From contig NZ_QGNA01000002.1 of NCBI RefSeq assembly GCF_003173615.1, positions 496,001 to 560,000 of the forward strand: DNA of 64,000 nucleotides. Reading direction: 5' to 3'. Both the position numbers and the translations under genes were made by a program. How positions within the stretch are numbered: the first letter of the stretch is position 1; each line of letters begins with the position of its first letter. Origin of the DNA: Falsiroseomonas bella. GTDB taxonomy: Bacteria; Pseudomonadota; Alphaproteobacteria; Acetobacterales; Acetobacteraceae. Under the pieces are notes generated by a model. The model saw only the letters and a program-made list of their open reading frames with translations, did not search any database and had not been told where the DNA came from. Below, in pieces: positions 41,201 through 55,313 of this stretch.

Positions 41201-43116
41201 TCTCGGCTTCCCTCGGCACGGTGCAGGAGGTCGGCCCGGGCGAGTGGGAGTACACGCCGCCGGCCGACTACGCCGGCAACGTCGTGTTCTTCTTCGACGT
41301 CTCGGACGGCACGGTGACAGTGCCGGGCGGCAACGTGGTGCTGTTCGTGGTGCCGGTGAACGATGCCCCGACCGGGCCCGGCAACATCGTGCTGCCCTCC
41401 CTGCCGGAAGACACCGACGGTTTCGTCACGGCCGCCGAGCTGCTGACCGGCTGGACCGACATCGACACAATCGAGCTGTCCGTCGTCGCCCTGACCACCT
41501 CGACGCCCGGCGCGGTGGTGGAGAGCCTCGGCGGTGGCGAGTGGCGCGTGCGCGGCGCGCCGGACGACGAGGGGGGCATTGCGCTCGCCTATGTGGTGAG
41601 CGACGGCACCGACACGGCCGCCGGCACCGCGACGATCGACTTGACGAAGGCCGCCGAGCAACCGGTCGGGCCCTCCGACGTGCTGCTCTTCCCCGGCCTG
41701 CTCGAAGAGGGCATGCGGGAGATCACCGCGGCCGAGCTGCTGGCCGGCTGGAGCCATCCGGACGGGCTGGAGCTCTCGGTGCTGGACCTCGTCGCCGGCG
41801 CGGGCGCGCTGACGCAGATCGACGCGGGGCGCTGGAGCTACCAGGCGGCGCAGGATGACGACGGCGCGGCCGGCTTCACCTACCTGGTGACCGACGGCGC
41901 GGCGACCGTGCCCGGCAGCGCGACGATGGACCTCCTCCCGGTGCAGGATGCGCCGATCGGCCCGGCGCTGATCGCGCTGTCGCCGGTCGCCGAGGACTTC
42001 CTCACCACCATCAACGTCGCGGATCTCCTGGCCGGCTGGAGCGATCCGGACGATGACGAGCTGGCGGTGCTGAACCTCGTCGCGTCCTCCGGCACGCTGA
42101 CGCCGCTGGCGGGCGGCGGCTGGAGCTTCCGCGGCGCGGCGGACGACGACAGCTTCGTGGACTTCACCTACCAGGTCAGCGACGGGACGACGACGGTGGC
42201 CGCAGCGGCGCAGCTCGAGCTGCTGCCGGTCACCGCCGGCCTGATCCGGACCGGCAACGGCGGCGCCAACAGCATCGCGGGCGGTGCGGACAACGACACC
42301 ATCAGCGGCCTCGCGGGCGACGACAGCCTGTTCGGCAATGCCGGTAACGACGCGCTGCTGGGCAGCACAGGCAACGACCTGCTCGAAGGCGGCTCCGGTT
42401 TCGACAGGCTGACCGGCAGCAGCGGAGCCGACAGCCTCCTTGGCGGGGACGATGCAGACACGCTGAACGGCGGGGATGGCGCCGACCTGATGGAGGGCGG
42501 TGCAGGCAACGACCTGTACGACCTGGTCGACCCGGGCGACATCATCGTCGAGGCGTCGGGCGGAGGTCGCGACACCGTGCGAAGCCGCTTCGACTGGTCG
42601 CTGGAGGAGGAGGTCGAGGACCTGGTGCTCGTCGGCACCGGCGCGGCAAGCGGCACCGGCAATGCAGCAGCCAACGTCCTCATTGGGAATGCGGCTGGCA
42701 ACGCGCTCGACGGCGGGGGAGGAGACGACAAGCTGTATGGCCGCGCCGGAAACGATACCTTGCGCGGCGGCCTCGGCGCGGACTCGCTGTACGGCGAGGG
42801 TGATGCCGACACGTACCACTACGGCTCGGCGTCCGAAGGCGGCGATCGCATCGTCGCCTATCGCGGGGTGGCGGACACCATCACGGTGTCCGGTCTCGGC
42901 TTCGGCCTCGATCCCGGCACCGACCTCGTCGCCACCGGACGCTATGCGGCGAATGCGACGGGAACGGCGAAGGGCGGGCTGGGCCAGTTCATCTGGGACA
43001 CCGACGACTTCACCCTGAGCTGGGACGCAGACGGCGAGGGCCTGAACTCACCGATACTCATCGCCGACCTGAGGGGCGCCGCGAACTGGTCCGGTTCGGA
43101 GCTCATCGTCGTGTGA
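35272..43116 (+). CDS. Giant secreted/surface protein with FG-GAP, cadherin-like and RTX calcium-binding repeats
   Basis: 2614 residues, no classical signal peptide. Residues about 440-760 and 1045-1300 hold FG-GAP/VCBS-type repeats with calcium-loop motifs such as DIDRDGLTDLVV and DVDGDGFTDLVVGN. A block of the form LTFRNTSDTPQQSRTL recurs four times (near residues 390, 983, 1525 and 1780). Residues about 1835-2320 are five tandem cadherin-like units of roughly 97-103 residues. Residues about 2326-2510 contain some twelve RTX nonapeptides (GGxGxDxxx). The C-terminal 100 residues resemble the export signal region of type I secreted proteins. Adhesion or matrix function is inferred; no type I exporter gene is in the window. 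Start ATG 35272 has a GAAGGGAGAG site upstream. Confidence 0.88.
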   Translation: MVAIRISGVQSAITTDEEKLNAPVDPLIPPSDTLFGQPRGLLPFAGVTVQYGAYLNGGAQFSAATAGQLGNSTVDVTITISGLAPGEMFIDNVGKLAVMSASGGVRTATLILQDVVESGKADFVTRVVRGLELASTSDTPPAQHALTVSIDDPKTDKGSFSTILNVTPYNDGPSVVWAPAPTKGNFGNYTVPEGSREVGGFIFGKDPETGEAGTRSLIGPDASRFEMDAVGFLRFRTAPDFETPRDANGDNIYELFVETRDASGSQTQGFELLPLKITVTNRAETARLGGLTSLLELSENAVNAQPRVIDPDIGYTAGDKPRELLVTGLLAEDAVSFVPVFSADGQSYLVDDLGDGSGSILRDGSLIASFAGGRGNNLRVTFEAIATPGDVDALLDHVTYQNLSDTPTFSRSLSFRVTDVTGGVANRPIASTFTELTGSANPFAGIDVGSFSSPARVDLVHPRGDLSLDGRPDLVLGEGAGGLVVLRATGGNPAWELGFPPFGTHSLMQSGGVPYDFGERSAPAAVDLDRDGVAEIVVGGTDGQLRVFKVNSSNDLYQEQVGAANPFAYAQHQWIGALTGRQLGTFLERQQVDVGAGSVPAFGDIDRDGLTDLVVSNSAGRFFVYKNLGHDFLERASREVEVLFGAALPAEGFRQFVTYEDAWLINGGELRPSLRWSSNPLAGVDGNNGAAPALVDLDLDGWLDLVVGDNAGRFEAFRNAAGGFTPFATNPFAGIDVGDGARPFFQDLDGDLLPDLIVGNEQGTLRAWKNTTNPGARVEIQVAPQNDAPRIVIPPGPYTFTEGDLIAIQASVVDPDGPILFKPWSLTGNDAGRFTISDNGLIRFVGTTDFELPTDSDGNNVYLATIQYFDGYSTASAPLSVTIADRVETSVVSGLNTNLLTSEQAAATRLDTDVSFTHGWPVANQQMVVSGLAPGDVVAIASGDGLTTIGANLIFGTTVIGSVSGGQGNNLVVTLNGFATPLAVERLIEALTFRNTSDTPQQSRTLVIDMPGGADGSLNGVAGGRRYVEQTGDANPFFGIATGFGNIAPALLDVTGDGRLDVTYGTTLGFLQTWRNQPIPTELVGYDFRGIADADNPLAGIALPPGIQNAAPAFGDIDGDGRKDLVVGSSSGIYAWKNTEAGFVPFASNPMPNPAAAPGNTDNTATLVNLDADAALELVIGTATAIHAYDWNGTAFVHNANTFAGQEVADYRGIQFIDLNGDGFLDFITGAADGQIVGWRRNVAGEGTFEINAPRTYSPIGPHPFRGIDVGDRSRPYLGDVDGDGFTDLVVGNAAGEIRFFRNLPMQPSITIQVTPVNDAPAPTVPASPVVVAVEEGFTGVVHRFVVTDPDASMQLRLFGDDAARFVIDQDDGEIRFAAAPDFEVPADRDRNGSYSFTVGFEDYGNPTGTGTHFNASVYAVTVNVTDKAEPTRLDALPATLAFTEGQAAWRLFGGADFTAGTALGGATLRISGLDTADVISILSAGTISYAAGQVTSNGVTFATATGGVGSDFVITFGANATEAMVDQLIDFLTFYNGDDSPTATRTLAFTYSGPGGQQFEAGSTVSTTLTVRATNDAPAIGNAPLSIGYVNENSTDIAFQAIGTDPDGDTITWSISGLDSGFLLVDPQTGAVRLKDPADFENLPAAAPGGVFEFNLNASDGRLSASGTFQIVVQNVNEGSSLTGLGPQMQTQEGAAPALLDESVVFTRADPLDGTQLVVSGLVAGDEVSVLDGGALGGIGFVGGVVSFGGTAIGTATGGSGGSDFVVTLNGDATQQAVDALIEALTFRNASPTAAASRTLRLDLVDADDMHLTAGPPYGQEIVVQVLPVNQAPDGPLHVVLPATDEDNAVILSQNALLADWSDPDGDTLSVVNLSSPTRPFVRIDTGADVIFVAQPPQQGQEFVGPLVITFGVSDGNTVVAASVEVPLTPENDAPFAPLGYGLPAIDEDETATITADDLLALWIDPEGDALTASNVSASLGTVQEVGPGEWEYTPPADYAGNVVFFFDVSDGTVTVPGGNVVLFVVPVNDAPTGPGNIVLPSLPEDTDGFVTAAELLTGWTDIDTIELSVVALTTSTPGAVVESLGGGEWRVRGAPDDEGGIALAYVVSDGTDTAAGTATIDLTKAAEQPVGPSDVLLFPGLLEEGMREITAAELLAGWSHPDGLELSVLDLVAGAGALTQIDAGRWSYQAAQDDDGAAGFTYLVTDGAATVPGSATMDLLPVQDAPIGPALIALSPVAEDFLTTINVADLLAGWSDPDDDELAVLNLVASSGTLTPLAGGGWSFRGAADDDSFVDFTYQVSDGTTTVAAAAQLELLPVTAGLIRTGNGGANSIAGGADNDTISGLAGDDSLFGNAGNDALLGSTGNDLLEGGSGFDRLTGSSGADSLLGGDDADTLNGGDGADLMEGGAGNDLYDLVDPGDIIVEASGGGRDTVRSRFDWSLEEEVEDLVLVGTGAASGTGNAAANVLIGNAAGNALDGGGGDDKLYGRAGNDTLRGGLGADSLYGEGDADTYHYGSASEGGDRIVAYRGVADTITVSGLGFGLDPGTDLVATGRYAANATGTAKGGLGQFIWDTDDFTLSWDADGEGLNSPILIADLRGAANWSGSELIVV
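40774..42230 (+). repeat. Five tandem cadherin-like repeats inside the giant RTX protein
   Basis: Units begin near 40774, 41083, 41377, 41668 and 41956, so the period is about 290-310 bases. Each encodes an ED-containing start, LLAxWxDPDGDxLxVxNL in the first half and a [FV]xYxVSDG motif in the second. The DNA has diverged between copies, while the protein pattern is kept. Confidence 0.8.
42250..42810 (+). repeat. RTX nonapeptide repeats (calcium-binding)
   Basis: About twelve nine-residue units such as GLAGDDSLF, GNAGNDALL, GGDGADLME and GRAGNDTLR, in two blocks separated by a linker. These fold into a parallel beta-roll on binding calcium after type I export. Confidence 0.9.
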
Positions 43117-43192: not shown

Positions 43193-43960
43193 TCATTGCG
43201 GCTCGCTGAAACCGGAGCCGGAGCCGGGCTCGACGAAGCGGCGGCTGTCGCCGGTCATCGTGACGGGGCGCCCCTGGCGGCAGTTGGTCATGCAGGCCTC
43301 GTCCGGCGTGTCGGGCCGAGCCTCCAGCACGAAGCCGTCGCGGTTCGGCATCTGCACGCGCGGCAGCGTCTCGCGATTCATCTCCGCGTCGTCCGGAATC
43401 AGCTCGTTCAGGAACAGGACATAGGCGGTGATCGCGTAGTACTCGTCGTTGGTCAGGCTCTGCGGCGCCGGATAGGGCATGGCGCGGCGGATGTAGTCGA
43501 AAACCCCCGGCGCATGCTGCCAGTAGGAGCCGACCGTGCGGCGCACCTCAGGCCCGCGAAGCGATCCACGGCCGCCCATCAGCGCCGGCCACCGCTCCAG
43601 TCCTTCGCCGAAGTCGCCGTGACAGGCCGAGCAGTGCTGCACGTAGAGCTCCTCGCCCTGCTGTGCCGTGCCGCTCCCAGGCGGCAGGTTATGGCCGTCG
43701 CCGCGCACGGCGATGTCCCACCCTGCGATTTCCTGCGATGTCGCGGCGCGCCCGATGCCCGGGATCGGCCGCGGCAGCGCGATGCCGCCCGGCGCGGGCC
43801 AGGCGACGTCGGCGCGCGTGCGCTCGCCAGACGGGGCTTCGAAGGGGCGGTAGAGCGCGCCCCGCCCCGGCTGTTGCTGCTGCTGCGCCAGCGCGCTTCC
43901 GCCAGCCAGCGCGACCGCCATCCCCGCCGCGATCGCGGCGCCCTTAATCGATCTGGACAT
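43193..43960 (-). CDS. soxD: SoxD-like c-type cytochrome, short monoheme form
   Basis: 255 residues: signal peptide ending near GGSALAQ, then one haem site CSACH at 110-114. It partners the molybdoprotein SoxC in the sulfane dehydrogenase of the Sox pathway in the periplasm. Classical SoxD is about 380 residues with two CxxCH haems; this one lacks the second, so it is closer in size to cytochrome subunits of sulfite dehydrogenases. Its start overlaps the end of soxC by 17 bases, so the two are translated together. ATG at 43960 gives the signal peptide. Confidence 0.85.
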   Translation of the reverse strand: MSRSIKGAAIAAGMAVALAGGSALAQQQQQPGRGALYRPFEAPSGERTRADVAWPAPGGIALPRPIPGIGRAATSQEIAGWDIAVRGDGHNLPPGSGTAQQGEELYVQHCSACHGDFGEGLERWPALMGGRGSLRGPEVRRTVGSYWQHAPGVFDYIRRAMPYPAPQSLTNDEYYAITAYVLFLNELIPDDAEMNRETLPRVQMPNRDGFVLEARPDTPDEACMTNCRQGRPVTMTGDSRRFVEPGSGSGFSEPQ

Positions 43961-45212
43961 TCGCCACCGTCCCGTCGCGGTCCACCAGCCAGGTGTGGAT
44001 GGAGTTCTTGTGGTAGATGCTCTCGACGCCACGGACCCGCCGCAGCGTGTCGAGCGTCGGCTGCACCCGGCCCGCCTCGTCCATGGCGCGGCTCTGCAGG
44101 AAGGCCTGGCGTCCCTCCTGCCACTCCCACGGGATGCGGAAGCGCGTGACGGCCTTGGACAGCACGGGCTCCTGTAGTTCCGCGGTGCGCCAGGTGTCGC
44201 CGCCATCCACCGATACATCCACGCGCGCGATGCGCCCCGCCCCCGACCAAGCGAGGCCGGAGATCTCGACGAAGCCCGGTCGGCCGCGGAGCGACTTCTC
44301 GGGGCAGGGATTGGTGATGCAGGAATTCACCTCGTTGACGAAGGTGAACTGGCGCGAGAGCCCGTCCGGCATCAGGTCGGCATAGGTCCGCGTTTCCCAG
44401 CGCGTGAACCAGGGGCGGTCGCCCACCTCGATCCGGCGGATCCACTTGATCCACATGTTGCCCTCGTAGCCGGGCAGCACGAGGCGCGCCGGATAGCCCT
44501 GCTGTGGCCGCACCGCCTCGCCATTCTGGCCGAAGGCGATGAACGCGTCGTCGAGCAGCTTGCGCAGCGGGATGGATCGCGCGAGGTGGCTGGCATCGCC
44601 GCCCTCCGCCAGCACCCAGGAGGCGCCGGGGCGCAGCCCGGCCGCGGCCAGCAGAACCTTCAACGGCACGCCCGTCCATTCCGAGCAGGACAGCATGCCG
44701 TGCGTGTACTGCACGCCCGACATCTGCGCGCCGCGCCATTCCATGCCGCCATTCGCGGGGCATTCCAGGAAGTGGATGCGGCTGACGGAGGGCAGGCGCT
44801 TCAGATCCTCGAGCGTGAAGACCAGCGGCCGCTCCACCATGCCGTGGATCATCAGCCGATAGTCGGAGGGATCGATGTCCGGCACGCCGCCATGGTGCCG
44901 CTCGAAATGCAGGCCGGACGGCGTGATGATTCCGTTCATCTCCGCGAGCGGCGTGAAGGAGACGGAGGACTGCCGGTCCTGCGTCAGCCAGGGCACGTAG
45001 CGCCGTGCCGCGGTTTCGTGCCGGCTTCGCGTGCCATAGGCCTCCTCGATCACGCCGGGGCCGAGGGTGCGGCTCCATTCCGGCTGGTTCGGCGGCAGGT
45101 TGTCGGGGTTGCCCGCGGCCTGCGCCCCCTTTCCCGCCGCACCGAGCGCCGCGCCGGCGCCCGCCGCGACGAGCAGGCGGCGTCGCGATGCCGTCATCTC
45201 CGGCCTGTTCAT
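43944..45212 (-). CDS. soxC: Sulfane dehydrogenase molybdenum subunit SoxC
   Basis: 422 residues. A twin-arginine leader (ASRRRLLVAAGAGAALG) shows folded export to the periplasm. The molybdopterin domain has the Mo-ligand Cys151 in HFLECPANGG, and the C-terminal dimerisation domain begins near the NSCITNPCPEKSLRGRPG segment. With SoxD it oxidises the sulfur still bound to SoxY, giving full yield of electrons from thiosulfate. Sulfite dehydrogenase SorA is related; location among sox genes favours SoxC. ATG at 45212 was chosen because upstream sequence in the frame has no leader-like features. Confidence 0.9.
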   Translation of the reverse strand: MNRPEMTASRRRLLVAAGAGAALGAAGKGAQAAGNPDNLPPNQPEWSRTLGPGVIEEAYGTRSRHETAARRYVPWLTQDRQSSVSFTPLAEMNGIITPSGLHFERHHGGVPDIDPSDYRLMIHGMVERPLVFTLEDLKRLPSVSRIHFLECPANGGMEWRGAQMSGVQYTHGMLSCSEWTGVPLKVLLAAAGLRPGASWVLAEGGDASHLARSIPLRKLLDDAFIAFGQNGEAVRPQQGYPARLVLPGYEGNMWIKWIRRIEVGDRPWFTRWETRTYADLMPDGLSRQFTFVNEVNSCITNPCPEKSLRGRPGFVEISGLAWSGAGRIARVDVSVDGGDTWRTAELQEPVLSKAVTRFRIPWEWQEGRQAFLQSRAMDEAGRVQPTLDTLRRVRGVESIYHKNSIHTWLVDRDGTVANVQID

Positions 45213-45277: not shown

Positions 45278-45475
45278 TCAAGCCAGCGCGAACATGTCCT
45301 GCGTGATGCTCTCGTACCAGCCATCGATGCGGAGCGCCTCGAGCCTGCGGTGCTCGCCCGTCGTCGCACCTGGAGCGTGGTTGCGCGGACTTGCGCCGCA
45401 GTCTTGTGCGATGCGGCTCATCACCGCGGCGACCGCCGCAAGAAGGCCCGACGCGAACAGGAAAATTCGCAGCAT
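45278..45475 (-). CDS. Small membrane-anchored protein at the head of the soxC-soxD operon, unknown
   Basis: 65 residues. One N-terminal hydrophobic helix (LRIFLFASGLLAAVAAVM) is followed by a short polar tail ending GWYESITQDMFALA. The ATG at 45475 has a strong AGGAGGAGG site ten bases upstream, which argues for a real gene. It is followed 65 bases later by soxC on the same strand and preceded by the ECF-type promoter at 45567-45595. No family recognised; it could be a small assembly or signalling protein of the Sox system. Confidence 0.6.
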   Translation of the reverse strand: MLRIFLFASGLLAAVAAVMSRIAQDCGASPRNHAPGATTGEHRRLEALRIDGWYESITQDMFALA

Positions 45476-45566: not shown

Positions 45567-45595
45567 TGAGACGCGCCGTCATCGTCATCTATTCC
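45567..45595 (-). promoter_or_regulatory. ECF-type sigma promoter of the small gene-soxC-soxD operon
   Basis: On the minus strand: GGAATAGAT, ten variable bases, GCGCGTCTCA. Read as -35 GGAATA, 16-base spacer, -10 CGTCTC. The same bases at the same spacing occur at 55285-55313 before the ECF sigma gene: 19 of 29 positions are identical and all ten differing-region bases lie in the middle. It lies about 92 bases before the first start codon. Confidence 0.75.
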
Positions 45596-45698
45596 GCTTC
45601 GATCGCGACTTCTTTTTCTGCAACGAACACCTCCTCGGCATGGACGTCGGCAAGCTGGCGGCGGCATGATTCCGCGCAGCGATAGAGGGGACGAACGC

Positions 45699-46073
45699 AT
45701 GCTGCGCTTCGGTGCACTTGCCCGATCGCCGCACCGCCTCGGCCTTGCGGCCGAGGGGCCCGCCTCGCTCGTCATGCTGGAACGGCACGACTGTCCCTGG
45801 TGCCGTCGCTGGCACCGCGAAGTCGGGCAGCAATCCTGGGACCGGTCGAACCTGGGCCAACGGGCGCCGCTGCGCCGCGTGGACGTCGCATCCGGCCTCC
45901 CGGCCAATCTCGGCTTCCTGCGCAACTGGCGCTTCACGCCGACCTTCGTGCTCGTCCAGGACGAGGCGGAGATCGGACGCATCATCGGCTACCAGGCCGA
46001 CCTGTTCTTCTGGCAGCAGGCGGAGGCGCTCATCGCCCGCCTGCCGCAAACCGCAAGGGAGGAGAGACGATGA
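45699..46073 (+). CDS. soxS: Thioredoxin-like protein SoxS
   Basis: 124 residues. A CxxC redox site lies in LERHDCPWCRRWHREV, followed by the thioredoxin-fold strand FTPTFVLVQDEAEIGRIIGY. SoxS-type proteins keep the sulfur carrier SoxY in its active thiol state. ATG at 45699 has GAGGGG about eight bases upstream; ATG at 45666 is a less likely alternative. No clear signal peptide is seen, which is unusual for a periplasmic partner. Divergent from the small gene-soxC-soxD operon and coupled to the next gene (ATGA). Confidence 0.75.
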   Translation: MLRFGALARSPHRLGLAAEGPASLVMLERHDCPWCRRWHREVGQQSWDRSNLGQRAPLRRVDVASGLPANLGFLRNWRFTPTFVLVQDEAEIGRIIGYQADLFFWQQAEALIARLPQTAREERR

Positions 46074-46561
46074 CCCGACGCCTTCTGCTGGCCGTCCTGG
46101 CCGCTGCCTCGATCGGCACCGCGCGCGCGGAGGATTTCGCGACCTTCCGCGTCATGTCGCCGCCGCTCGCCCTCGACCTCGCGCGCGCGGCGCTCGAGGC
46201 CTGCCGTCAGCGCGGCTTCCAGATTGCGGTCGCGGTGGTGGATCGGTTCGGCGTGACGCAGGTGGTGCTGCGCGACACGCTGGCCGGCGCGCACACGCCG
46301 GACACGGCAGCGGCCAAGGCCCGCGCGGCGGTCAGCTTCCGCACCTCGACGGAAGAGCTCTCCGCGGCGACGCAGGCCGGGCAGGTCAACAGCGCGATCC
46401 GACACATCCCCGGCTACGTGTTCCTCGGCGGCGGCGTGCCGGTCGAGTCCGCCGGCTCGATCGTCGGCGGCGTCGGCGTCTCCGGCGCACCGGGCGGGGC
46501 GGAAGACGACGCCTGCGCGCGCGCCGGCATCAGCGCGGTGGAGGATCGCCTGGCATTCTGA
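46070..46561 (+). CDS. Heme-binding protein, GlcG/HbpS (DUF336) family, exported
   Basis: 163 residues with a signal peptide (LLLAVLAAASIGTARA) and the GlcG/HbpS fold: ALEACRQRGFQIAVAVVDRFG, HTPDTAAAKARAAVSF, GGGVPVESAGSIVGGVGVSG. Members bind haem or small ligands; several sox clusters carry one. Overlaps soxS by 4 bases, so it is made with it. Role in sulfur oxidation is inference from position. Confidence 0.85.
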   Translation: MTRRLLLAVLAAASIGTARAEDFATFRVMSPPLALDLARAALEACRQRGFQIAVAVVDRFGVTQVVLRDTLAGAHTPDTAAAKARAAVSFRTSTEELSAATQAGQVNSAIRHIPGYVFLGGGVPVESAGSIVGGVGVSGAPGGAEDDACARAGISAVEDRLAF

Positions 46562-46573
46562 ACTCCGGCCCGC

Positions 46574-47020
46574 TCAGGGCCGGAGATGCACCCAGCCGCG
46601 CAACTGCCGCTCCACGATCTCCGGCAGGCCGTTCTGCACCACCGCGATGCCGGGCAGCACGGCCTCCGGCCCCAAGCCGAGCGTGTCGAGCGTGGCGCCG
46701 CAGGCCAGGAACTCGATGCCATAGGCCTGCAGGCTCGCCACGCGTTCCGCCACCTGGCTGTCCTCCTTCAGCAGGTGCCGCACGCCGGGGCCGTAGGCGA
46801 CGACGACGATCTCCACCATGTCCTGGCCGTAGAAGCCCTGGATGTTGATGACGTTCGAGAACACTGCGTTGGCGCGATCCTGATCGCGCTCGCTGATCGA
46901 CACCACGATGCGCCGCGGCGCGTCGATCGAAGGCTTCGGGTCGGACAGTTCCGTCTCCCGCCGGCCGGCCGCCATCAGCGGCAGCGCGGCGAGCCCCGCG
47001 AGAAGTCTGCGTCGCCTCAT
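46574..47020 (-). CDS. DsrE family protein with leader peptide
   Basis: 148 residues. An N-terminal basic-hydrophobic leader (MRRRRLLAGLAALPLMAAG) precedes a DsrE-like fold (RIVVSISERDQDRANAVFSNV, EIVVVAYGPGVRHLL, and IEFLACGATLDTLGL with a Cys at the position often used for sulfur transfer). Exported DsrE proteins accompany sulfur oxidation genes and may carry or sense sulfur. Start overlaps the stop of the upstream spermidine-synthase-like gene by 4 bases. Confidence 0.82.
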   Translation of the reverse strand: MRRRRLLAGLAALPLMAAGRRETELSDPKPSIDAPRRIVVSISERDQDRANAVFSNVINIQGFYGQDMVEIVVVAYGPGVRHLLKEDSQVAERVASLQAYGIEFLACGATLDTLGLGPEAVLPGIAVVQNGLPEIVERQLRGWVHLRP

Positions 47021-48582
47021 CGTCCGCTCCCCTCCCTGCTCCAGACCAGATGCGTCATCAGCCGGTCCACCGGTGCGAAGTCGTCCGTCAGCACCGGCAC
47101 GCCGGAGGCCGCGATGCGCTGTCGCACGACCGCGTCCGGCAGCCGCGCCCAGCCGCGCGACGGGCCGTTCCGGCTGACGATCCGTCCTGCCGGCGTCGGC
47201 GTGTCGGAGGCGAGGAGCAGATAGGTAACGCGCCGCCCCTCGGCTTCCGCCATTTCCACCCAGACCTCGACGACAGGGAAATCCATCATGAGCGTGCGGG
47301 CCAGGGCGAAGAGGAAGCGCGGCTCCCGCTTGTCCTCCATGACGTTCGCCAGATAGGCGCCGCCCGGCTTCAGCCGCGCGCGCACCGCCTGGTGCCATTC
47401 CCGCGTGGCGAGATGCACCGGCATCGCGATGTCGAGGAAGGCGTCGGCCAGGATTACGTCATGGGCGGGCACCGCCGCAGTCGCCTGCAGCGCGACGCGG
47501 CCATCCGCGGCGACGATGCGCAGCGCCTCGCCTTCCTCCAGCCAGAAGTCGCGGCGCGCGGCGGCGGACACGGCAGGATCGATCTCGGCGACGGTGAAGC
47601 GCCCCCCGGGATGCGCGGCGGCCCAGGCGCGCGGCAGCGTGAAGGCGCCACCGCCGACGAAGAAGGCGCTGGGGCTGGCGGGCAGCCCTCGGTGCGCGAC
47701 GATCTCGTCTGCGAGGTGCAGGTAAGACTGCACGAGTAGCCCCGGTTCGTCGCGCACATTGGCGCCATGCGCGAGGTGGTCCAGCACCATCAGCCGCGCC
47801 GGCTGGCCGACCACGGGCTCGATGTCCACCACGCGGATGCAGAAATAGGCGCTCTCCGCGTCGCACGCGCTGGCGAGCGCCGGCAGCCGCCCGATGCCGA
47901 GCGGCAGCAGCAGCGCCGCCGCGACACCCGCCGACGCCACGATGCTCCGCGCGCGCCGCGCCGCCGCGACGGCATGGCCCGCCGCCATCAGCCCGTAGGC
48001 CGCCGCACAGGCCAGCATCGTCCCGGTCGAACCGATCCAGGCCACGAAGACGAAGCCCGCAAGCAGCGTGCCCGCGATGGCGCCGAGCGCCGACAGCGCG
48101 AACAGCCGGCCGAGCACGCGTCCGACCTCGCCTGCGCGCGCCTCCTCCACCGCAAGCTTCGTCACGATGGGGGAGACGGCGCCGACCAGCAGGCTCGGCA
48201 GGAAGAAGCCGGCAATGGCAAGGCCGAGGATCGCGACCAGCGGATGCACGCCTTCCGCGTCGAAGACCGGTGCGGCGAGACGCAGCGCCGGCACGGCGAG
48301 CAGGCAGGTGGCGGCGCAGCCCGCGAGCAGCCAGGCGAGCCGCCGATGGCCCGTGCGCCGATCCCCCTCCGCCAGCCTGCCGCCCCACCAATGGCCGAGC
48401 GAGAAGCCACCCAGCACCACGGCGATGATCGCCGTCCAGCTGTGCAGCGACATGCCGACATGCGGCGCGAGCAGGCGCCCCGCCACGATCTCCACGACCA
48501 GGCCGAGCGCAGAGGCGAGCAGGATCGTGGCGGCATCGCCAAGCGCACGGGGTCGCGTCGCGTCGTTGCCGCGAAAAGTCAT
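47017..48582 (-). CDS. Membrane protein fused to a spermidine synthase-like methyltransferase-fold domain
   Basis: 521 residues. The first 220 residues contain about seven hydrophobic helices (starting ATILLASALGLVVEIVAGRL). The C-terminal half is a spermidine synthase-like Rossmann fold with FFVGGGAFTLPRA, FTVAEIDPAVSAAARRDF and HDVILADAFLD. Such fusions are widespread and rarely make spermidine; the substrate is unknown. It is coupled to the DsrE gene and divergent from soxW, so a link to sulfur metabolism is suggested by position only. Confidence 0.83.
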   Translation of the reverse strand: MTFRGNDATRPRALGDAATILLASALGLVVEIVAGRLLAPHVGMSLHSWTAIIAVVLGGFSLGHWWGGRLAEGDRRTGHRRLAWLLAGCAATCLLAVPALRLAAPVFDAEGVHPLVAILGLAIAGFFLPSLLVGAVSPIVTKLAVEEARAGEVGRVLGRLFALSALGAIAGTLLAGFVFVAWIGSTGTMLACAAAYGLMAAGHAVAAARRARSIVASAGVAAALLLPLGIGRLPALASACDAESAYFCIRVVDIEPVVGQPARLMVLDHLAHGANVRDEPGLLVQSYLHLADEIVAHRGLPASPSAFFVGGGAFTLPRAWAAAHPGGRFTVAEIDPAVSAAARRDFWLEEGEALRIVAADGRVALQATAAVPAHDVILADAFLDIAMPVHLATREWHQAVRARLKPGGAYLANVMEDKREPRFLFALARTLMMDFPVVEVWVEMAEAEGRRVTYLLLASDTPTPAGRIVSRNGPSRGWARLPDAVVRQRIAASGVPVLTDDFAPVDRLMTHLVWSREGSGR

Positions 48583-48632
48583 TGACGACGTCCTCCGCCG
48601 GCGCGATGCAGCGACCTCCGGAGGAGATGCGC

Positions 48633-49193
48633 ATGCTGCTCACGCGCCGTCACCTGGTCGCCGCTGGCCTTGCCCTGCCCGCCGCACTGTCCTCGGCCGC
48701 GCGCGCTGCGCCGGTGCGCACCGACCACGGCTTCACGCAGGACTGGTTCCTGGACAGCTTCCTGAACCTGCAGGAGGACCTCGCGGAAGCGACCGCCGCC
48801 GGCCAGCGCTTCGCCGTCGTGTTCGAGCAGCGCGGCTGCCCCTACTGCGTCGAGATGCACACGGACCATCTGGCGCAGTCCGAGATCGAGGGCTTCATCC
48901 GCCCGCGCTTCCGCATCCTGCAGCTCGACCTGCACGGCGCGCGCCCGGTCACCGATTTCGACGGGGAGGTGCTGGAGGAACGCGCCCTCGCGCGGCGCTG
49001 GCGCGTGACCTTCACGCCCACGATGCTGTTCTTCCCCGAGCAGGCGCCGCAGCGTCCGGGCCGTGAGATCGAGGTCGCGCGGATGCACGGGCTGATGCGC
49101 AAGCCGGAGTTCCTCGGCCTGTTCACCTATGTCGCGGACCACGCCTATGCCGACGGCACGCAGTTCCGCGCCTGGTGGCAGCGCAGGGGATAG
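48633..49193 (+). CDS. soxW: Periplasmic thioredoxin SoxW
   Basis: 186 residues from ATG at 48633, which has GGAGGAG six bases upstream; ATG at 48627 or 48582 would lengthen it. Signal peptide MLLTRRHLVAAGLALPAALS, then a CxxC site in FEQRGCPYCVEMH and FTPTMLFFPEQAP. SoxW receives electrons from the membrane protein SoxV/CcdA, encoded convergently just downstream, and reduces periplasmic Sox components. Confidence 0.85.
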   Translation: MLLTRRHLVAAGLALPAALSSAARAAPVRTDHGFTQDWFLDSFLNLQEDLAEATAAGQRFAVVFEQRGCPYCVEMHTDHLAQSEIEGFIRPRFRILQLDLHGARPVTDFDGEVLEERALARRWRVTFTPTMLFFPEQAPQRPGREIEVARMHGLMRKPEFLGLFTYVADHAYADGTQFRAWWQRRG

Positions 49194-49201
49194 GCCGGCG
49201 C

Positions 49202-49936
49202 TCACCCGAAGTGGCCCAGCTCGGGCCAACGCTCCAGCAGCCAGCCGCCGATCGCCTGGAAGCTGCCGGTCAGCAGCAGGATGCCGGTCAGGATCAGCAG
49301 GCCGCCCACCACAAGCTCCACCGCGTGGAAATAGCGCCGGAAACGCCCGACGAAGCGGAGGAAGGGCGTGACGAAGGCGGCGGCGAGCAGGAAGGGCACA
49401 CCCATCCCGAGCGCGTAGGCGAAGAGCAGCAGCGCGCCTTCCGCCACGCTGTCCTGCGCCGCGGCGATGGTGAGCACGCCGGCCAGCACCGGCCCGACAC
49501 AGGGCGTCCAGCCGAAGGCGAAGGCGAGCCCGACGACATAGGCGCCGCCCAGGCCGACGGGCCGCGACTGCACCTGCATGCGCTTCTCGTAGTTCAGGAA
49601 GCCGATGCGCATCACACCCGCGAAGTGCAGCCCGAACAGGATCAGCACGATCCCCGCCACGACGGCGAGCGTATCCATGTGGTCCGCGAAGAGCCGCGAC
49701 AACGCGCTTGCGGTGGCGCCCATCAGCGTGAAGACGCTGGCGAAGCCCAGCACGAAGAACAGCGCGGCCAGCATCACTCGCGCGCGGTCGCCCACGACCG
49801 CGACCGGGCCGCCCGGCGCCGCGCGCAGCGTCACCCCGCCGAGGAAGCCGAGATAGGGCACGATCAGCGGCAGCACGCAGGGGCTGAGGAAGGAGAGCGC
49901 CCCCCCGAGCAGCGCCGCGCCGAGCCCGACCTCCAC
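49202..49936 (-). CDS. soxV: Cytochrome c biogenesis/thiol transporter CcdA (SoxV)
   Basis: 244 residues, six predicted membrane helices. The family motif LSPCVLPLIVPYLGFL near residue 20 and the second Cys in AFGWTPCVGPVLAG are the pair that passes electrons from cytoplasmic thioredoxin across the membrane to SoxW. GTG at 49936 directly abuts the soxB stop. It is the last gene of the sigma-to-sox operon and convergent with soxW. Confidence 0.9.
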   Translation of the reverse strand: MEVGLGAALLGGALSFLSPCVLPLIVPYLGFLGGVTLRAAPGGPVAVVGDRARVMLAALFFVLGFASVFTLMGATASALSRLFADHMDTLAVVAGIVLILFGLHFAGVMRIGFLNYEKRMQVQSRPVGLGGAYVVGLAFAFGWTPCVGPVLAGVLTIAAAQDSVAEGALLLFAYALGMGVPFLLAAAFVTPFLRFVGRFRRYFHAVELVVGGLLILTGILLLTGSFQAIGGWLLERWPELGHFG

Positions 49937-51610
49937 TCACGCCCCGCGCAGGCGCAGATGCTCGTGCGGCACCGGCCGCACCGGGCCCTTGGCGAGATGC
50001 GCCATCAGCACCTCCCACACCGGCGGGCCCTGCACGCCCTCGGCGACCGAGGCCCAGCCGGCGACGGTGTATTCCCGCGTCGCCTCGATGGGCCGGCCGG
50101 TGCGGAGCAGGGTGAGGTCGGAGATGCGCCGCCCGGCCGGCGCCGCGACGTCGAGGGTCCAGCCGATGCCGCCGACGCGCACCATGTCGCCGCCCTGCTG
50201 GTAGTAGGGATCGGGGTTGTAGAGGTTGTCGGCCACGTCCTCGAGGATTGTCTTGATCTGCGCTCCGGTCATGCGCTGCCGCCAGACGGCAGGATAGGTC
50301 ATGGCCGTATGGGCCCAGACATCCTCCGCCGTGATGTCGCTGTTCGCCAGCAGCGCGTATCCCCAACGAAAGGCCGGCGAGAGCGCGATCTCCGCGTCCT
50401 GGCCTTCCATCAGCGCCGCCAGGATCACGTCGTCCATCGTGCCGTTCAGGTTGCCGCGCCGCCAAAGCGTCGTCTCGGTATGGCCGACGACGCGGGCGAG
50501 GTCCGCCGCGTAGGGCGCGCGCAGGCGTTGCACCAGCGCGGTCGTCTCGGCATCGGGCGTGATGGCGTCCGCGAAGACCGGGATCAGCGCGTGCCGGTGC
50601 CCCACCACGCGCCCGTCTTCGACGCGCAGGTCGAGGCGCGAGATGAACTTGCCGTGGCAGCCGGAGGCGACGAGCAGCGTATTGCCGACGCGCAGCGCCT
50701 CGGGCAGCGCGTCATGCGTGTGGGCGGTGAGGATCACGTCGATCCCCTCCACGCGTCCGGCCAGCTTGCGGTCCACGTCGAAGCCGTTGTGCGAGAGCAG
50801 CACGACGAGCTGCGCCCCGTCGTCGCGCGCGGCCTGCACGCGCTCGCGCAGCTTGTCCTCCTTGATGCCGAAGGCCCAGTCCGGGATCATCCAGCGCGGG
50901 TTGGCGATCGGCGTGTAGGGGAAGGCCTGGCCGATGACGGCGACCTTGACCCCGCCGCGCTCGAACATCTTCGTATGGTCGAAGACGTCCTCGTTCCACT
51001 CGGTGTCCTGCACGTTGCCGGCCAGGAAGGCGCAGGACATGGCCGCCACCAGCTCCTTCACGCGGTCGGCGCCGTAGGTGAATTCCCAGTGGCCGGTGGT
51101 GGCATCCGCGGTCAGCGCCTTCAGCGCCTCCACCATGTCGCCGCCCTTCGTCTGCAGCGCGGTCCAGGAGCCCTGCAGCGTGTCGCCGCCGTCAAGCACC
51201 AGCGTGTTCCCCGGGCGCTCCGCGCGGATCGCCTTGATCAGCGTGACGATGCGATCGAGGCCGCCCATCGGGCCATAGGCACGCGCCAGCCGGTCGAAAT
51301 CCACATAGGCCAGGGCATGCGCCATCGGGCTGCCCACCGGGATGCGGTAGTGATCCAGCAACGCCCGGCCGGTGAGGTGCGGCACGACGCCGCGCGCCTC
51401 GCCCACGCCGACATTGGTCGTGGCTTCGCGGAAATACATCGGGACGAGCTGCGCGTGCAGGTCCGTGACATGCACCAGCGTCACCTGGCCGACGGCGTCG
51501 AAGCGCAGCAGGTCCGCCTGGGTCGGCCTGGTCTGGCCGCGTGCCGGCCCATGCGCGCCCAGCGCCGCCAGCGCGGCGCCGGCGGCCATCAGATCGCGAC
51601 GTGAAAGCAT
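49937..51610 (-). CDS. soxB: Thiosulfohydrolase SoxB
   Basis: 557 residues, normal length. Leader SRRDLMAAGAALAALG, then the dimanganese metallophosphatase-like domain: VTLVHVTDLHAQLVP, LVLDGGDTLQGSW, TGHWEFTYGADRV and VVLLSHNGFDVD. It releases sulfate from the thiosulfate-SoxY conjugate in the periplasm. Located between soxA and ccdA in the same transcript. Confidence 0.95.
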   Translation of the reverse strand: MLSRRDLMAAGAALAALGAHGPARGQTRPTQADLLRFDAVGQVTLVHVTDLHAQLVPMYFREATTNVGVGEARGVVPHLTGRALLDHYRIPVGSPMAHALAYVDFDRLARAYGPMGGLDRIVTLIKAIRAERPGNTLVLDGGDTLQGSWTALQTKGGDMVEALKALTADATTGHWEFTYGADRVKELVAAMSCAFLAGNVQDTEWNEDVFDHTKMFERGGVKVAVIGQAFPYTPIANPRWMIPDWAFGIKEDKLRERVQAARDDGAQLVVLLSHNGFDVDRKLAGRVEGIDVILTAHTHDALPEALRVGNTLLVASGCHGKFISRLDLRVEDGRVVGHRHALIPVFADAITPDAETTALVQRLRAPYAADLARVVGHTETTLWRRGNLNGTMDDVILAALMEGQDAEIALSPAFRWGYALLANSDITAEDVWAHTAMTYPAVWRQRMTGAQIKTILEDVADNLYNPDPYYQQGGDMVRVGGIGWTLDVAAPAGRRISDLTLLRTGRPIEATREYTVAGWASVAEGVQGPPVWEVLMAHLAKGPVRPVPHEHLRLRGA

Positions 51611-51621
51611 CGCTCTTCCTC

Positions 51622-52431
51622 TCAGCGCCGGACGGACGGCGTCTCCACGGGGAGGCCCTGCGCGCGCCAGGCCAGGTAGAACTCGAGGTTCGTGAATTCC
51701 TCGCTGCCCATCGCCGGCGGCTCGCCGCGCACGTCGTTGACGCAGCCCTGCAGGCGGAACTGCAGGCTGATCACCCGCTGCTCCTTCAGGCGATAGGTGG
51801 GGAAGCCGTTGCTCATGCCCTGGCTGAGCAGGTCGGCGCGCAGCGAGCGGCCGTAATTGTCCTCGTGGCAGGAGCCGCAGCGCATGTCGAGCTGGCCGCG
51901 CCGCGTGTTGTAGAACTCCTCGCCGCGATCGAAGAACGGCCGGGCAGGACCGGAGATGTCCACGTTCATCGGCATGCCGCGCGACTGCAGCCCGATGAAG
52001 GCGGTCATCGCGTTCAGCTCGCGGCTGTCGATCCGCAGCTCCGGCGCGCCCATCCGCTCCGTGCGGCAGATGTTCACCTGCTGCTCGAGCGTGACGACGC
52101 GCCCCTTCGCCGCGTTGTAGGCCGGGTAGCGCGCACGCACGCCGCGCATGGATGCCGTCGCGTCCTGGTGGCAGGACGCGCAGGACTGCCCGGCGGAGCC
52201 GGCGGGATGGTTCCAGGCCTGCTCGCCCTCCTCCACCCAGAGGAAGGCGGGGTTCTGGAAGTCGTCGTCCTGGATCGCGAGCGTCTCGGGCGTGGCGTAG
52301 TTGCGCCCGCTTTCCGGGCTGGTGATGGTGCGGTGCGGCTCCGGGGCGGGGCCCGGCGCCTGGGCGAGGGCAAGCCCGGCGGCCAGAGCCGCCGCGCCCG
52401 CACCCGCGAGAAAGGCCGCGCGGCGCGCCAT
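51622..52431 (-). CDS. soxA: L-cysteine S-thiosulfotransferase subunit SoxA, diheme
   Basis: 269 residues. A signal peptide (to about residue 24) is followed by two haem sites, CASCH at 84-88 and CGSCH at 185-189, so this is the diheme form. The catalytic Cys230 lies in LQGCVNDVRGEP and carries the cysteine persulfide ligand of the second haem. With SoxX it joins thiosulfate to the SoxY cysteine. Starts seven bases after soxZ. Confidence 0.94.
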   Translation of the reverse strand: MARRAAFLAGAGAAALAAGLALAQAPGPAPEPHRTITSPESGRNYATPETLAIQDDDFQNPAFLWVEEGEQAWNHPAGSAGQSCASCHQDATASMRGVRARYPAYNAAKGRVVTLEQQVNICRTERMGAPELRIDSRELNAMTAFIGLQSRGMPMNVDISGPARPFFDRGEEFYNTRRGQLDMRCGSCHEDNYGRSLRADLLSQGMSNGFPTYRLKEQRVISLQFRLQGCVNDVRGEPPAMGSEEFTNLEFYLAWRAQGLPVETPSVRR

Positions 52432-52438
52432 GGCGCGC

Positions 52439-52774
52439 CTACTCGGCCAGCCGGACCGCCTGGGTGAGCTTGCGCTGCTCCCCGGCGTCGTTGGTCCAGA
52501 CCATCTCCAGGTTCCCCGCCCGCTCCGCCTTGAAGGGGAAGGCGATGTAGGGGTTGGCGGAGATCGCCGGATGCAGGTCCATCGAGAACACCGGCTGCCC
52601 TTCGAAGGTGCAGGTGAAGCTCTTGATGATGTCGCGCGGGATGATCTGGCCTTCCTGGTTCCGGCGCTGTCCGGTCTCCATGATGTGGGAGATCAGGGTG
52701 CGGATCTCGATCACCTCGCCCGCCTTGATCTGGGCGGGAAGCCGCACGCGCGGCTGTCCGATCGGGGCTGCCAT
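52439..52774 (-). CDS. soxZ: Sulfur carrier complex subunit SoxZ
   Basis: 111 residues, full length. Family blocks: VIEIRTLISHIMETGQRR, FTCTFEGQPVFSMDLHPAIS and LEMVWTNDAGE. SoxZ binds SoxY to form the carrier on which the sulfur substrate rides; it has no signal peptide and is exported as a complex with SoxY. It follows soxY by 16 bases. Confidence 0.95.
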   Translation of the reverse strand: MAAPIGQPRVRLPAQIKAGEVIEIRTLISHIMETGQRRNQEGQIIPRDIIKSFTCTFEGQPVFSMDLHPAISANPYIAFPFKAERAGNLEMVWTNDAGEQRKLTQAVRLAE

Positions 52775-52790
52775 GGTTCTTCCCTCCTGC

Positions 52791-53252
52791 TCAGCCGCCG
52801 CAGCCGCCGATGGTGACCTTCACCTCGGCCCGCGAGATGTAGAGCTTGCCGTCGCTCATCTCCGCCACGGCGATCACGTCCTGCGTCTGACCGAGGCGGA
52901 TGCGCGTGTCGGCCTGCGCGCGGCCCATCGCCGGGCTGAAGCGGAAGGTCGCGACATCCGGCGTCGGGTTCTTGTCGGCGAAGACGTGCACGGCCTTGAC
53001 GTGGTCGGCCGCCGTCATCGGGCTCTCGACCGTGACGGTCAGCGGCACCGTGTTGCCGTTCTCCGCGATCGGCGGCAGGCGGAGCTGGACGCGTCCTTCC
53101 TCCGGCGTGCGCTCGCCGATGATCTTGCGGATCGCCGCCGCGGTGGCCGGCTCCATCTGCGCCGCGGCCGGCTTGGGCAGCAGCGACAGGCCGACAAGGC
53201 CCGCCGCCGCCGCGAGCGCACCGCGGCGACCCAGTGTCGTCGCCTGCATCAT
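52791..53252 (-). CDS. soxY: Sulfur carrier protein SoxY
   Basis: 153 residues from ATG at 53252 (a second ATG at 53249 has better spacing from AGGAGA). The twin-arginine leader TLGRRGALAAAAGLVGLSLL exports the folded SoxYZ complex. The C-terminal swinging arm ends VTIGGCGG, whose cysteine (residue 151) carries the sulfur during oxidation. The frame is open upstream with GTG/ATG codons inside the soxX-soxY gap, but those lack leader structure. Confidence 0.94.
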   Translation of the reverse strand: MMQATTLGRRGALAAAAGLVGLSLLPKPAAAQMEPATAAAIRKIIGERTPEEGRVQLRLPPIAENGNTVPLTVTVESPMTAADHVKAVHVFADKNPTPDVATFRFSPAMGRAQADTRIRLGQTQDVIAVAEMSDGKLYISRAEVKVTIGGCGG

Positions 53253-53275
53253 GGTCTCTCCTGTCCCGTGTGTTG

Positions 53276-53740
53276 TCATCGCAGCGTCAGCAGGTAGGCG
53301 AGGATGTCCTCCACCTCCTGCGCCTCCAGCATGGGCCTGCCCGCCCAGTCGCGGCGGACGCGGTTCAGCCCCTCGACGCGGTAGTAGGAAGGCATGTTGC
53401 TGTCGGGGTTGATGCGCTTCGTGTCCACGATGCGCAGGCGCAGCTCGCCCGGCTCGTAGCGGTCGGCGACGCCGGTGAGCGGCGGACCGAGGTTGCCCTG
53501 GAAGTCGGCCGAGAGCGGCAATTCGTGGCAGGTCACGCAGTTGCCCTTGGAGCGGTCGAGCGCGAGACGCTGGCCGCGCTCGGCATTGCCCGGCGTGTCC
53601 GTCAGCGGGCGGGGGATCGCCTGGTCCACCACCTCGAACGGGACGAGGCGGACCGGCTCGCGTGCCGCCGTTTGCGCCACGGCCTCGGTGAACGGCGCCG
53701 CGCACGCGATCGCCACAACCAGCAGCAGACTGCCTCTCAA
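53276..53740 (-). CDS. soxX: Cytochrome c subunit SoxX
   Basis: 154 residues from a TTG start at 53740, chosen because GGGAGGAGG stands just upstream and the first residues form a perfect signal peptide (MRGSLLLVVAIACAAPF, cleavage after AVAQ). One haem site CVTCH at 68-72, and MPSYYRVEGLNRV near the C-terminus with the Met ligand. Forms the SoxAX enzyme with SoxA. The 134-base gap to the anti-sigma stop could hold a second promoter, but no copy of the ECF site was seen there. Confidence 0.9.
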   Translation of the reverse strand: MRGSLLLVVAIACAAPFTEAVAQTAAREPVRLVPFEVVDQAIPRPLTDTPGNAERGQRLALDRSKGNCVTCHELPLSADFQGNLGPPLTGVADRYEPGELRLRIVDTKRINPDSNMPSYYRVEGLNRVRRDWAGRPMLEAQEVEDILAYLLTLR

Positions 53741-53874
53741 GGCGCCCTCCTCCCCGATCACGTCGCGCGGCGCGGTCGCAAGGACGAACCGTGCCGCCGC
53801 ACCCAAGCCCCGCATGACAATGCACCGCCGCTCGGCCACGCCGCGGCGGACACGCAGGGGCGCATTCGCCCGGC

Positions 53875-54711
53875 TCATCCGACGGTGTCGCAAGGGCGCC
53901 GCACGAGCCCGGCCACGAGCCCCGAACGCTCGGGTGCAGGTGGCTGCATCGCGCGCTCCACCGCCTGTGCGATCGGTCGCAGCCGCTCGCGCGGCAGGAA
54001 GGCAGTCACGGCGTGCAGGTGCCGCCCATCCGACCAGCTGTAGGTGACGAGGCCACCCGGTTCGTCGGCGCAGCGCATCGGGCGCGGCACCGGGTCATGC
54101 GCCGGCCGGCGCCAGACGGAGACGGCGATGCCATCCGGGTCCACGAAGAGCAGCATCGCCGAAGGGCGGGCCTGGGCCGGCAGCACCCATGCCACCTCGA
54201 GCGCGAAGCCGAAGCCGGAGAGATCGGGCAGCGGTATCGCCTCCCCGAGGTGCTCACGCAGCCAGCCGGTGATGTTCGTGTCGCGCGCCGAAGCCTCCAG
54301 CCGGGTCGGCCCCTGCGCGATCAGCCGGTGCAGCGCGGTCGGCGCGGAGGGAAGCTCGGCGGGCACCAGGTTGGCCTGGAGCGTGCCGCGCATGGTCCAG
54401 CCGAGCCCGGCGCCCGCCAGCAGCAGCAGGACCACCGCCGCCGCGATGCGCCCCCATGCGAGGGCCGCCCGGCGCCGCGCCGCGCGCAGGGTCTCGATCC
54501 GCAGCCGCGTGGGTATGGGCTCGACCGCCTTGAAGGCCAGGGCCGCCCGCAGCGCATCGCGCTGTGAAGCGAAGGCCCGGACCCGTGCGGCTTCCTCGGG
54601 CCGCTCGGCAAGGTAGCGCTCCACGGCGGGCGCCCGCATCGGGTCGAGCCTGCCATCCACGAAGGCGTGCAGGTCGTCCTCGCCGATCGGCGCCTGGGGA
54701 TCAGAGCGCAT
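53875..54711 (-). CDS. Membrane-anchored anti-sigma factor
   Basis: 278 residues. The cytoplasmic N-terminal part (DDLHAFVDGRLDPMRAPAVE, then ERPEEAARVRAFASQRDAL) is an anti-sigma domain of the type that pairs with alphaproteobacterial ECF factors; it has no zinc-binding His-Cys-Cys motif. One membrane helix follows near residues 88-106 (IAAAVVLLLLAGAGLGW). The remaining 170 residues would face the periplasm, where Sox chemistry takes place, and could sense a sulfur compound. It starts three bases after the sigma stop. Confidence 0.87.
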   Translation of the reverse strand: MRSDPQAPIGEDDLHAFVDGRLDPMRAPAVERYLAERPEEAARVRAFASQRDALRAALAFKAVEPIPTRLRIETLRAARRRAALAWGRIAAAVVLLLLAGAGLGWTMRGTLQANLVPAELPSAPTALHRLIAQGPTRLEASARDTNITGWLREHLGEAIPLPDLSGFGFALEVAWVLPAQARPSAMLLFVDPDGIAVSVWRRPAHDPVPRPMRCADEPGGLVTYSWSDGRHLHAVTAFLPRERLRPIAQAVERAMQPPAPERSGLVAGLVRRPCDTVG

Positions 54712-54714
54712 GGA

Positions 54715-55233
54715 TCAGACCACCCGGCGCAAGGGAACGACGCCCGCAGGCCGCCCCTCGCCAAGCCGGCGCAGCCTTTCCCGCGCGCGGGAGAGACGCG
54801 ACATCACGGTGCCGATCGGCACGGCGAGCACCTCCGCCGCCTCGTCGTAGGCAAGGCCCTCGACGCCCACGAGCAGCAGGACCGCGCGCTGTTCCTCCGG
54901 CAAGGTGTCGAGCTGATCCAGCACCTCGGCGCAGTGCACCGAGGCATCCGCGCCGCCGACCGGGGTGGCGATCTCCCCGAACTGGGCGACCTGCTCCAGC
55001 AGCCGCGCACGCCGGGCCGAGCGCCGGCGGCCGGAGACGTAGAGGTTGTAGAGGATGGCGAAGAGCCAAGCGCGAAGGTTCCCATCCGCATGTCGTCGGT
55101 GCCAGGCGCCAAGGGCGTGCTCCAGGCAGTCCTGCACCAGATCGTCGGCCTCATCGGCGTTGCGGGTCAGGGACCAGGCAAAGCGGCGCAGGGCGGGCAC
55201 CAGCACCTCCATGCGCCTGTCCCGGTCCGCCAC
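54715..55233 (-). CDS. ECF-family RNA polymerase sigma factor
   Basis: 172 residues. Sigma region 2: LRRFAWSLTRNADEADDLVQD and NLRAWLFAILYNLY; region 4: LPEEQRAVLLLVGVEGLAYDE followed by VPIGTVMSRLSRARERLRR. GTG at 55233 is preferred because GGGGAGG is six bases upstream; ATG at 55248 would place that site inside the coding region. It heads an operon with its anti-sigma factor and soxX, Y, Z, A, B and V. The promoter-like site at 55285-55313 suggests it drives its own transcription. Confidence 0.9.
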   Translation of the reverse strand: MADRDRRMEVLVPALRRFAWSLTRNADEADDLVQDCLEHALGAWHRRHADGNLRAWLFAILYNLYVSGRRRSARRARLLEQVAQFGEIATPVGGADASVHCAEVLDQLDTLPEEQRAVLLLVGVEGLAYDEAAEVLAVPIGTVMSRLSRARERLRRLGEGRPAGVVPLRRVV

Positions 55234-55284
55234 AGCCTGCCTCCCCATCCGCGGTTCGCTTCGCAGCGACGCCGTTGTCGAGCA

Positions 55285-55313
55285 TGAGACGCGCGGGCCG
55301 GGCGATCTATTCC
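55285..55313 (-). promoter_or_regulatory. ECF-type promoter of the sigma-anti-sigma-soxXYZAB-soxV operon
   Basis: Minus strand GGAATAGAT, ten variable bases, GCGCGTCTCA; identical core and spacing to the site at 45567-45595. -35 GGAATA, 16-base spacer, -10 CGTCTC, about 50 bases before the GTG start. Autoregulation by the encoded ECF factor is the simplest reading. Confidence 0.75.

Follow-up and report, generated by a model that had tools for sequence, protein, structure and literature searches.

A set of sulfur-oxidation (sox) genes lies together with an extracytoplasmic function (ECF) sigma factor and an anti-sigma factor in a 64,000-nucleotide stretch of the alphaproteobacterium Falsiroseomonas bella (assembly GCF_003173615.1, contig NZ_QGNA01000002.1, positions 496,001 to 560,000), the whole of which is called here the window. 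The genes stand on the minus strand in two groups, both of which may be transcribed from ECF-type promoters. The first group is separated by small gaps only and keeps the order that the initial annotation had claimed, which profile matches bear out: ECF sigma factor, anti-sigma factor, soxX, soxY, soxZ, soxA, soxB and ccdA. The sigma factor (177 amino acids (aa), 54715..55248; Pfam Sigma70_r4_2 and Sigma70_r2) is followed directly, after 3 nt, by the gene of a membrane anti-sigma factor (278 aa, 53875..54711), in which a ChrR-like N-terminal domain, a hydrophobic helix and an RseB/MucB-like domain can be recognized. Behind them come soxX (53276..53878; TIGR04485), which may begin at an ATG overlapping the stop codon of the anti-sigma gene, soxY (52791..53252; PF13501), soxZ (52439..52774; TIGR04490), soxA (51622..52431; TIGR04484) and soxB (49937..51610; TIGR04486). 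The last gene encodes a ccdA/soxV-like membrane thiol transporter (49202..49936), assigned from its gene context and from DsbD-type NCBIfam matches below cut-off, and the tract from the sigma gene through ccdA contains no called terminator-like site.

The second group consists of a 65-aa open reading frame (ORF; 45278..45475), soxC (43944..45212), which matches the sulfite-dehydrogenase model TIGR04555, and the cytochrome gene soxD (43193..43960; cytochrome c matches). The window thus holds a complete soxXYZABCD, soxD being assigned by its cytochrome c domain and position only, and its sigma/anti-sigma pair has no adjoining gene for a SorT-type sulfite dehydrogenase. The ArsR-type repressor SoxR had been described as absent here, and indeed the ArsR helix-turn-helix (HTH) model HTH_5 (PF01022), other HTH models not having been searched, has no match in the window and 15 elsewhere in the genome.

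Each group is preceded by a predicted ECF26-type promoter with the core GGAATA-N16-CGTCTC on the minus strand, P1 at 55286..55313 and P2 at 45568..45595. A motif scan confirms the positions and spacing that had been noted for the two sites, of which the upstream one (minus strand 55313-55285) reads GGAATAGATCGCCCGGCCCGCGCGTCTCA and the downstream one (minus strand 45595-45567) reads GGAATAGATGACGATGACGGCGCGTCTCA. Their high identity also stands, with the count of 19 of 29 positions corrected to 22 of 29, as three spacer positions match in addition to the 19 fixed ones. The first base of P1 lies 65 nt from the assumed ATG of the sigma gene, for which an alternative GTG start is possible at about 55233, and P2 is flanked by a divergent thioredoxin-like gene (45666-46073, plus strand) on one side and the 65-aa ORF-soxC-soxD group on the other. 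With spacers of 16 or 17, the motif occurs twice in the window versus never in 100 dinucleotide shuffles. Across the 5.94-Mb genome these same two matches, both before sox operons, are again the only ones, a reversed control pattern gives none, and 17 further places appear when one mismatch is allowed at spacer 16. The genome scan that the initial annotation had proposed therefore favours its idea of a sigma switch.

Both sites have the features of published promoters of ECF26 sulfite systems, namely a -35 GGAAT(A) and a -10 CGTC with spacing within 1 bp. Tan et al. 2019 give -35 GGAAT and -10 CGTC, with a spacing that differs by 1 bp, for SmsorT, SnsorA and SmrpoE4, the signal being sulfite (PMC6527743), and a cross-species ECF26 consensus reads -35 GGAATA and -10 GT (PMC6180224). 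The Sinorhizobium meliloti sorT promoter listed in the latter source, as parsed here, is GGAAT-N16-CGTCTC, with the same -10 hexamer and a spacer one base shorter.

Relatives were compared for a second site, GGAAT-N17-CGTC facing soxC or soxE, with spacers of 15-18 allowed, in stretches of 501-1105 bases of our own choosing. Such a site is present in all four genomes whose sigma gene adjoins sox genes (the window, Crenalkalicoccus roseus (G021), G166 and Caldovatus aquaticus (G047)) versus none of the seven without this linkage (G188, G087, G045, G160, G095, G154 and G203). Chance sites expected at genome-wide rates sum to about 0.002 over the four linked stretches, which share ancestry and are not independent. 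Long stretches of the seven unlinked genomes gave no sigma or anti-sigma matches; a close sigma is missing from six of these genomes, and the one in G095 stands beside SorT on another contig. The motif's uniqueness in the genome, its presence in 4/4 linked and 0/7 unlinked relatives and the match to mapped promoters of sulfite-type ECFs together support sigma control of both putative sox operons, in line with the earlier interpretation.

Individual relatives differ in what the sites adjoin. In C. roseus, whose stretch is identical to L003, a third GGAATA-N16-CGTC occurs just before a SorT-cytochrome operon (L190, G021:C66, 5660, minus strand), so that sox and sulfite oxidation would form one putative regulon with the SorT operon as its likely third member. 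No soxCD was found in G047, where the second site adjoins the divergent cytochrome gene. The sox cluster of this species (L077) is decayed, with soxX, a partial soxY and a ccdA-like gene left and soxZAB likewise not found, and both ECF sites are retained. In G166 a cytochrome oxidase subunit II-like gene also has a GGAATAGAT...GCGCGTC site near its start (L191, G166:C15, 5641, minus strand), which may be there by chance or may make this respiratory gene part of the sigma regulon.

The position of a small gene-soxC-soxD operon behind the second site has held up, but the small gene itself probably has to be given up. The 65-aa ORF resembles the C-terminal end of SoxF, a flavocytochrome c sulfide dehydrogenase (PF09242, E 2.6e-4, under the family cut-off), and its start is an assumption, as the frame stays open upstream through P2 to 45985. 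By tblastn a match to it lies ahead of soxC in eight relatives (L145-L148, L150-L152 and L154) and is missing before soxC in C. roseus; full soxE and soxF can be read in L145 (16212-17821) and L148. Because it matches the SoxF end and two relatives have full soxE and soxF at the same place, the ORF is best read as a deletion remnant of soxF. Both the window and C. roseus lack soxE and most of soxF, and 124 nt separate the beginning of the G166 site from a soxE start; P2 was probably a soxEFCD promoter originally. The F. bella genome has a second, more divergent soxX-soxY-soxZ-soxA set, 35-47% identical, at about 9250-11170 of L153 (G000:C1:8000-27900), again with a soxF-end match nearby.

The sigma factor has close relatives within its own family, for which 299 family genomes and 15 genus genomes were searched. 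Counting the query itself, eight ECFs have an identity of 64% or higher to the window sigma factor (64-76% for the other seven, which head SorT or sox operons), and GGAATA-N16-CGTC stands upstream of every one of them, at a distance of 54-86 nt from the sigma start in seven cases and, in C. roseus, of 91 nt from an in-frame ATG. In six of the eight (a paralog in the F. bella genome itself (L075), G095, G681, G127, G047 and G166) SorT comes directly after the anti-sigma factor, followed in G047 by soxX and part of soxY and in G166, on one strand, by soxXYZAB and ccdA; the order sigma, anti-sigma, soxXYZAB, ccdA is found in the window and in C. roseus. The paralogous sigma factor (contig C1, start 1342139, 71% identical) heads a SorT-type sulfite dehydrogenase operon and has a GGAATA-N16-CGTCCC site (G000:C1:1342073-1342100) 39 nt before its gene. 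In trees, the window sigma and anti-sigma factors group with the SorT-linked ones of their own genus; for soxB, the shortest paths lead to C. roseus and G166, though without resolution, and soxC groups away from those two. The sigma-sox linkage may thus have more than one origin. Among the 24 family loci L051-L074, nine (L055, L056, L064, L068, L069 and L071-L074), none of which has sulfur genes found beside the ECF, show a nearby GGAATA-N15-CGTC, one base under the sulfur-linked N16; this difference in spacing may keep paralogs apart.

The anti-sigma factor suggests how a signal could reach the sigma factor. Its predicted model has a helix at 72-107, where a hydrophobic stretch was read from the sequence, and the RseB-like domain beyond it would be periplasmic, with one cysteine (C214) in this domain and another (C274) in the C-terminal tail. 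RseB and MucB are periplasmic regulators of RseA and MucA; here the domain is instead part of the anti-sigma factor itself and carries the cysteine pair, and the shared fold shows no shared function. The ChrR anti-sigma factor of Rhodobacter sphaeroides is cytoplasmic, whereas the window protein has a hydrophobic helix and an extra, sensor-like domain. Its nearest relatives are SorT-linked anti-sigma factors, and the cysteine pair is present in 8/8 anti-sigma factors of the close SorT/sox-linked clade versus 0/52 other aligned relatives. It is likewise found in 52/52 members of a Nitratireductor/Sulfitobacter group, in 22/22 of a Sinorhizobium group and in all eight named SorT loci examined that have a sigma/anti-sigma pair.

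Taken together, these sequence comparisons lead us to propose, with a probability of roughly 0.7, that an ECF26-type sigma/anti-sigma pair heads the sox operon and drives both this operon and soxCD from the two GGAATA-N16-CGTCTC promoters, and that sulfite opens a latch in the anti-sigma factor. We infer the ECF26 type from homology, promoter and context. In the absence of a signal, the anti-sigma factor would hold the sigma factor at the membrane through its N-terminal domain, while a C214-C274 disulfide would keep the periplasmic domain closed. Sulfite formed in the breakdown of thiosulfate or organosulfur compounds would cleave this bond by sulfitolysis, a general reaction of disulfides; the tail would open and the anti-sigma factor would be inactivated, perhaps with its proteolysis. 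The free sigma factor would then transcribe its own operon, in a positive feedback, as well as soxCD. Sulfite is presumed to be the signal because relatives answer to it. Such ECF factors in Sinorhizobium, which the initial annotation had mentioned, are on record: RpoE4 and SigE types respond to sulfite, and Tan et al. describe rapid induction by added sulfite (PMC6527743). In the same study, a C-terminal truncation abolishes effective sequestration by the RpoE1 anti-sigma factor of strain 1021, in keeping with a function of the C-terminal part. The release of sigma by sulfite is said to proceed by a mechanism 'as yet unknown' (PMC6527743) and ECF26 activation 'remains hypothetical' (PMC6180224).

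Several observations count against this proposal or leave room for others. Two of the seven unlinked stretches (G045 and G203) also match the second site once a mismatch is allowed, and the shorter core GGAATR-N16-CGTC occurs 14 times in the genome, in most cases probably as background; that both motifs are chance resemblances and no promoters is nevertheless very improbable, given the two matches of the full motif and the four of four linked genomes with a second site. The paralogous sigma factor probably reads the same sites and cross-talk is likely, as its identity to the window sigma factor and the site of its own operon suggest. The sites could even be true ECF26 promoters that this SorT-linked paralog drives equally or more, with sox belonging to a general sulfite regulon. 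RpoE1 and RpoE4 of S. meliloti do cross-activate (PMC3511301, PMC6527743), and C. roseus, with one close sigma listed, has sites before its sox, soxC and SorT operons. Yet both sox sites read CGTCTC versus CGTCCC at the paralog, and C. roseus and G166 have one close sigma each, so that a sox-linked sigma factor can serve alone; we regard an equal or dominant share of the paralog as unlikely.

The signal and the latch are open to comparable doubts. Bastiat et al. found that sodium sulfite, at concentrations of up to 50 mM, did not induce their fusions, and assumed that sulfite has to be made inside the cell (PMC3511301), an assumption that fits badly with a periplasmic sensor. This result, the tetrathionate response of an RpoE1-type sigma factor of Starkeya novella (PMC6527743) and the fact that the sox operon handles thiosulfate would suit a pair that senses thiosulfate, tetrathionate, polysulfide or the periplasmic redox state in place of sulfite; as the window anti-sigma factor is closest to SorT-linked ones and the RpoE4/SigE types answer to sulfite, such another signal seems quite unlikely. 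As to the cysteines, C274 falls in a low-confidence tail of the model (predicted local distance difference test about 54), which leaves the C214-C274 bond unsupported by it, and the first cysteine of Rhizobiales/Rhodobacterales (GCRL) does not lie on the same strand as that of Acetobacteraceae. In Acetobacteraceae the cysteine pair has the same distribution as a single clade, and common ancestry could explain the contrast of 8 with 52; the gene neighbourhood is known for only a minority of the sets of 52 and 22 homologs. Possible exceptions without the cysteines are L052, where the ECF pair is followed by a 34% SorT-like gene, L066, with a 28% SorT-like match upstream, and G205, with a 37% SorT-like gene about 5 kb away (L084). 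The cysteines might thus be structural, merely pinning the tail, or bind metal or haem, uncleaved by sulfite, the bond itself being a proposal; their conservation in nearly all sulfite-linked anti-sigma factors examined, as opposed to their lack in other ECF26-like ones of the same architecture, makes this rather unlikely.

The nearest published counterparts of the window pair are RpoE4/EcfR4-sorT of S. meliloti and SigE-sorAB of S. novella, which share with it the sigma then anti-sigma gene order, the GGAAT/CGTC core and a place before a sulfur-oxidation operon (PMC3511301, PMC6527743). RpoE4 shares autoregulation as well, and the cysteine pair is present in S. meliloti anti-sigma factors presumed to be EcfR4. 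The targets differ, being soxXYZAB-ccdA and soxCD in the window and not a lone sulfite dehydrogenase, and the first cysteine is on the next strand. Bastiat et al. 2012 place RpoE1 and RpoE4 in ECF26, a group to which Staron et al. had tentatively given thiosulfate oxidation (PMC3511301). Direct sigma control of soxXYZAB had been judged unusual, and so it appears, but it is not without precedent, as an ECF sigma/anti-sigma pair controls sox, in a looser manner, in Arcobacter butzleri (PMC3445524). There sigma-2 (AB1044) raises and sigma-7 lowers sox transcripts within a broad regulon; unlike the window gene, sigma-2 is by locus numbers away from sox (AB0563-AB0570), it also affects nap, nrf, hydrogenase and other loci, and the passages available of this source name neither a sulfite signal nor a promoter. 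Clusters under SoxR, as in Hyphomicrobium denitrificans (PMC10451225, PMC12423496), resemble the window in placing thiosulfate-oxidation genes under a dedicated sulfur-signal regulator, which is, however, an ArsR-type repressor that senses sulfane sulfur.

ECF26 control of sulfite dehydrogenases and the looser A. butzleri case were thus known, and what is new here is a sulfite-type ECF pair built into a sox operon, with both sox operons carrying matching promoters, together with the cysteine pair of the anti-sigma factors. In literature that included few subscription journals, we found neither of them in print. ECF control of sox is absent from the excerpts of PMC2147049 and PMC9230146, and cysteines are mentioned, in the parts shown, in a cited reference in PMC3511301 and for an ECF16 anti-sigma factor in PMC6180224, the mentions in PMC2147049 not having been looked up. 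More tentatively, and with more doubt than belief, the cysteine pair may serve ECF26 anti-sigma factors throughout the alphaproteobacteria as their sulfite sensor, and this sensor of a toxic intermediate may have been captured, possibly repeatedly, to run the whole of sox in some Acetobacteraceae. If so, a product of sulfur oxidation would feed forward on the sox pathway, and the sox linkage would be a case of a detoxification sensor recruited to control an energy-yielding pathway, as an alternative to SoxR-type control. Finally, two very long ORFs flank the sox region, one on the plus strand (35272-43116, 2614 aa) and one on the minus strand (59959-63879, 1306 aa), with repeated similar segments.

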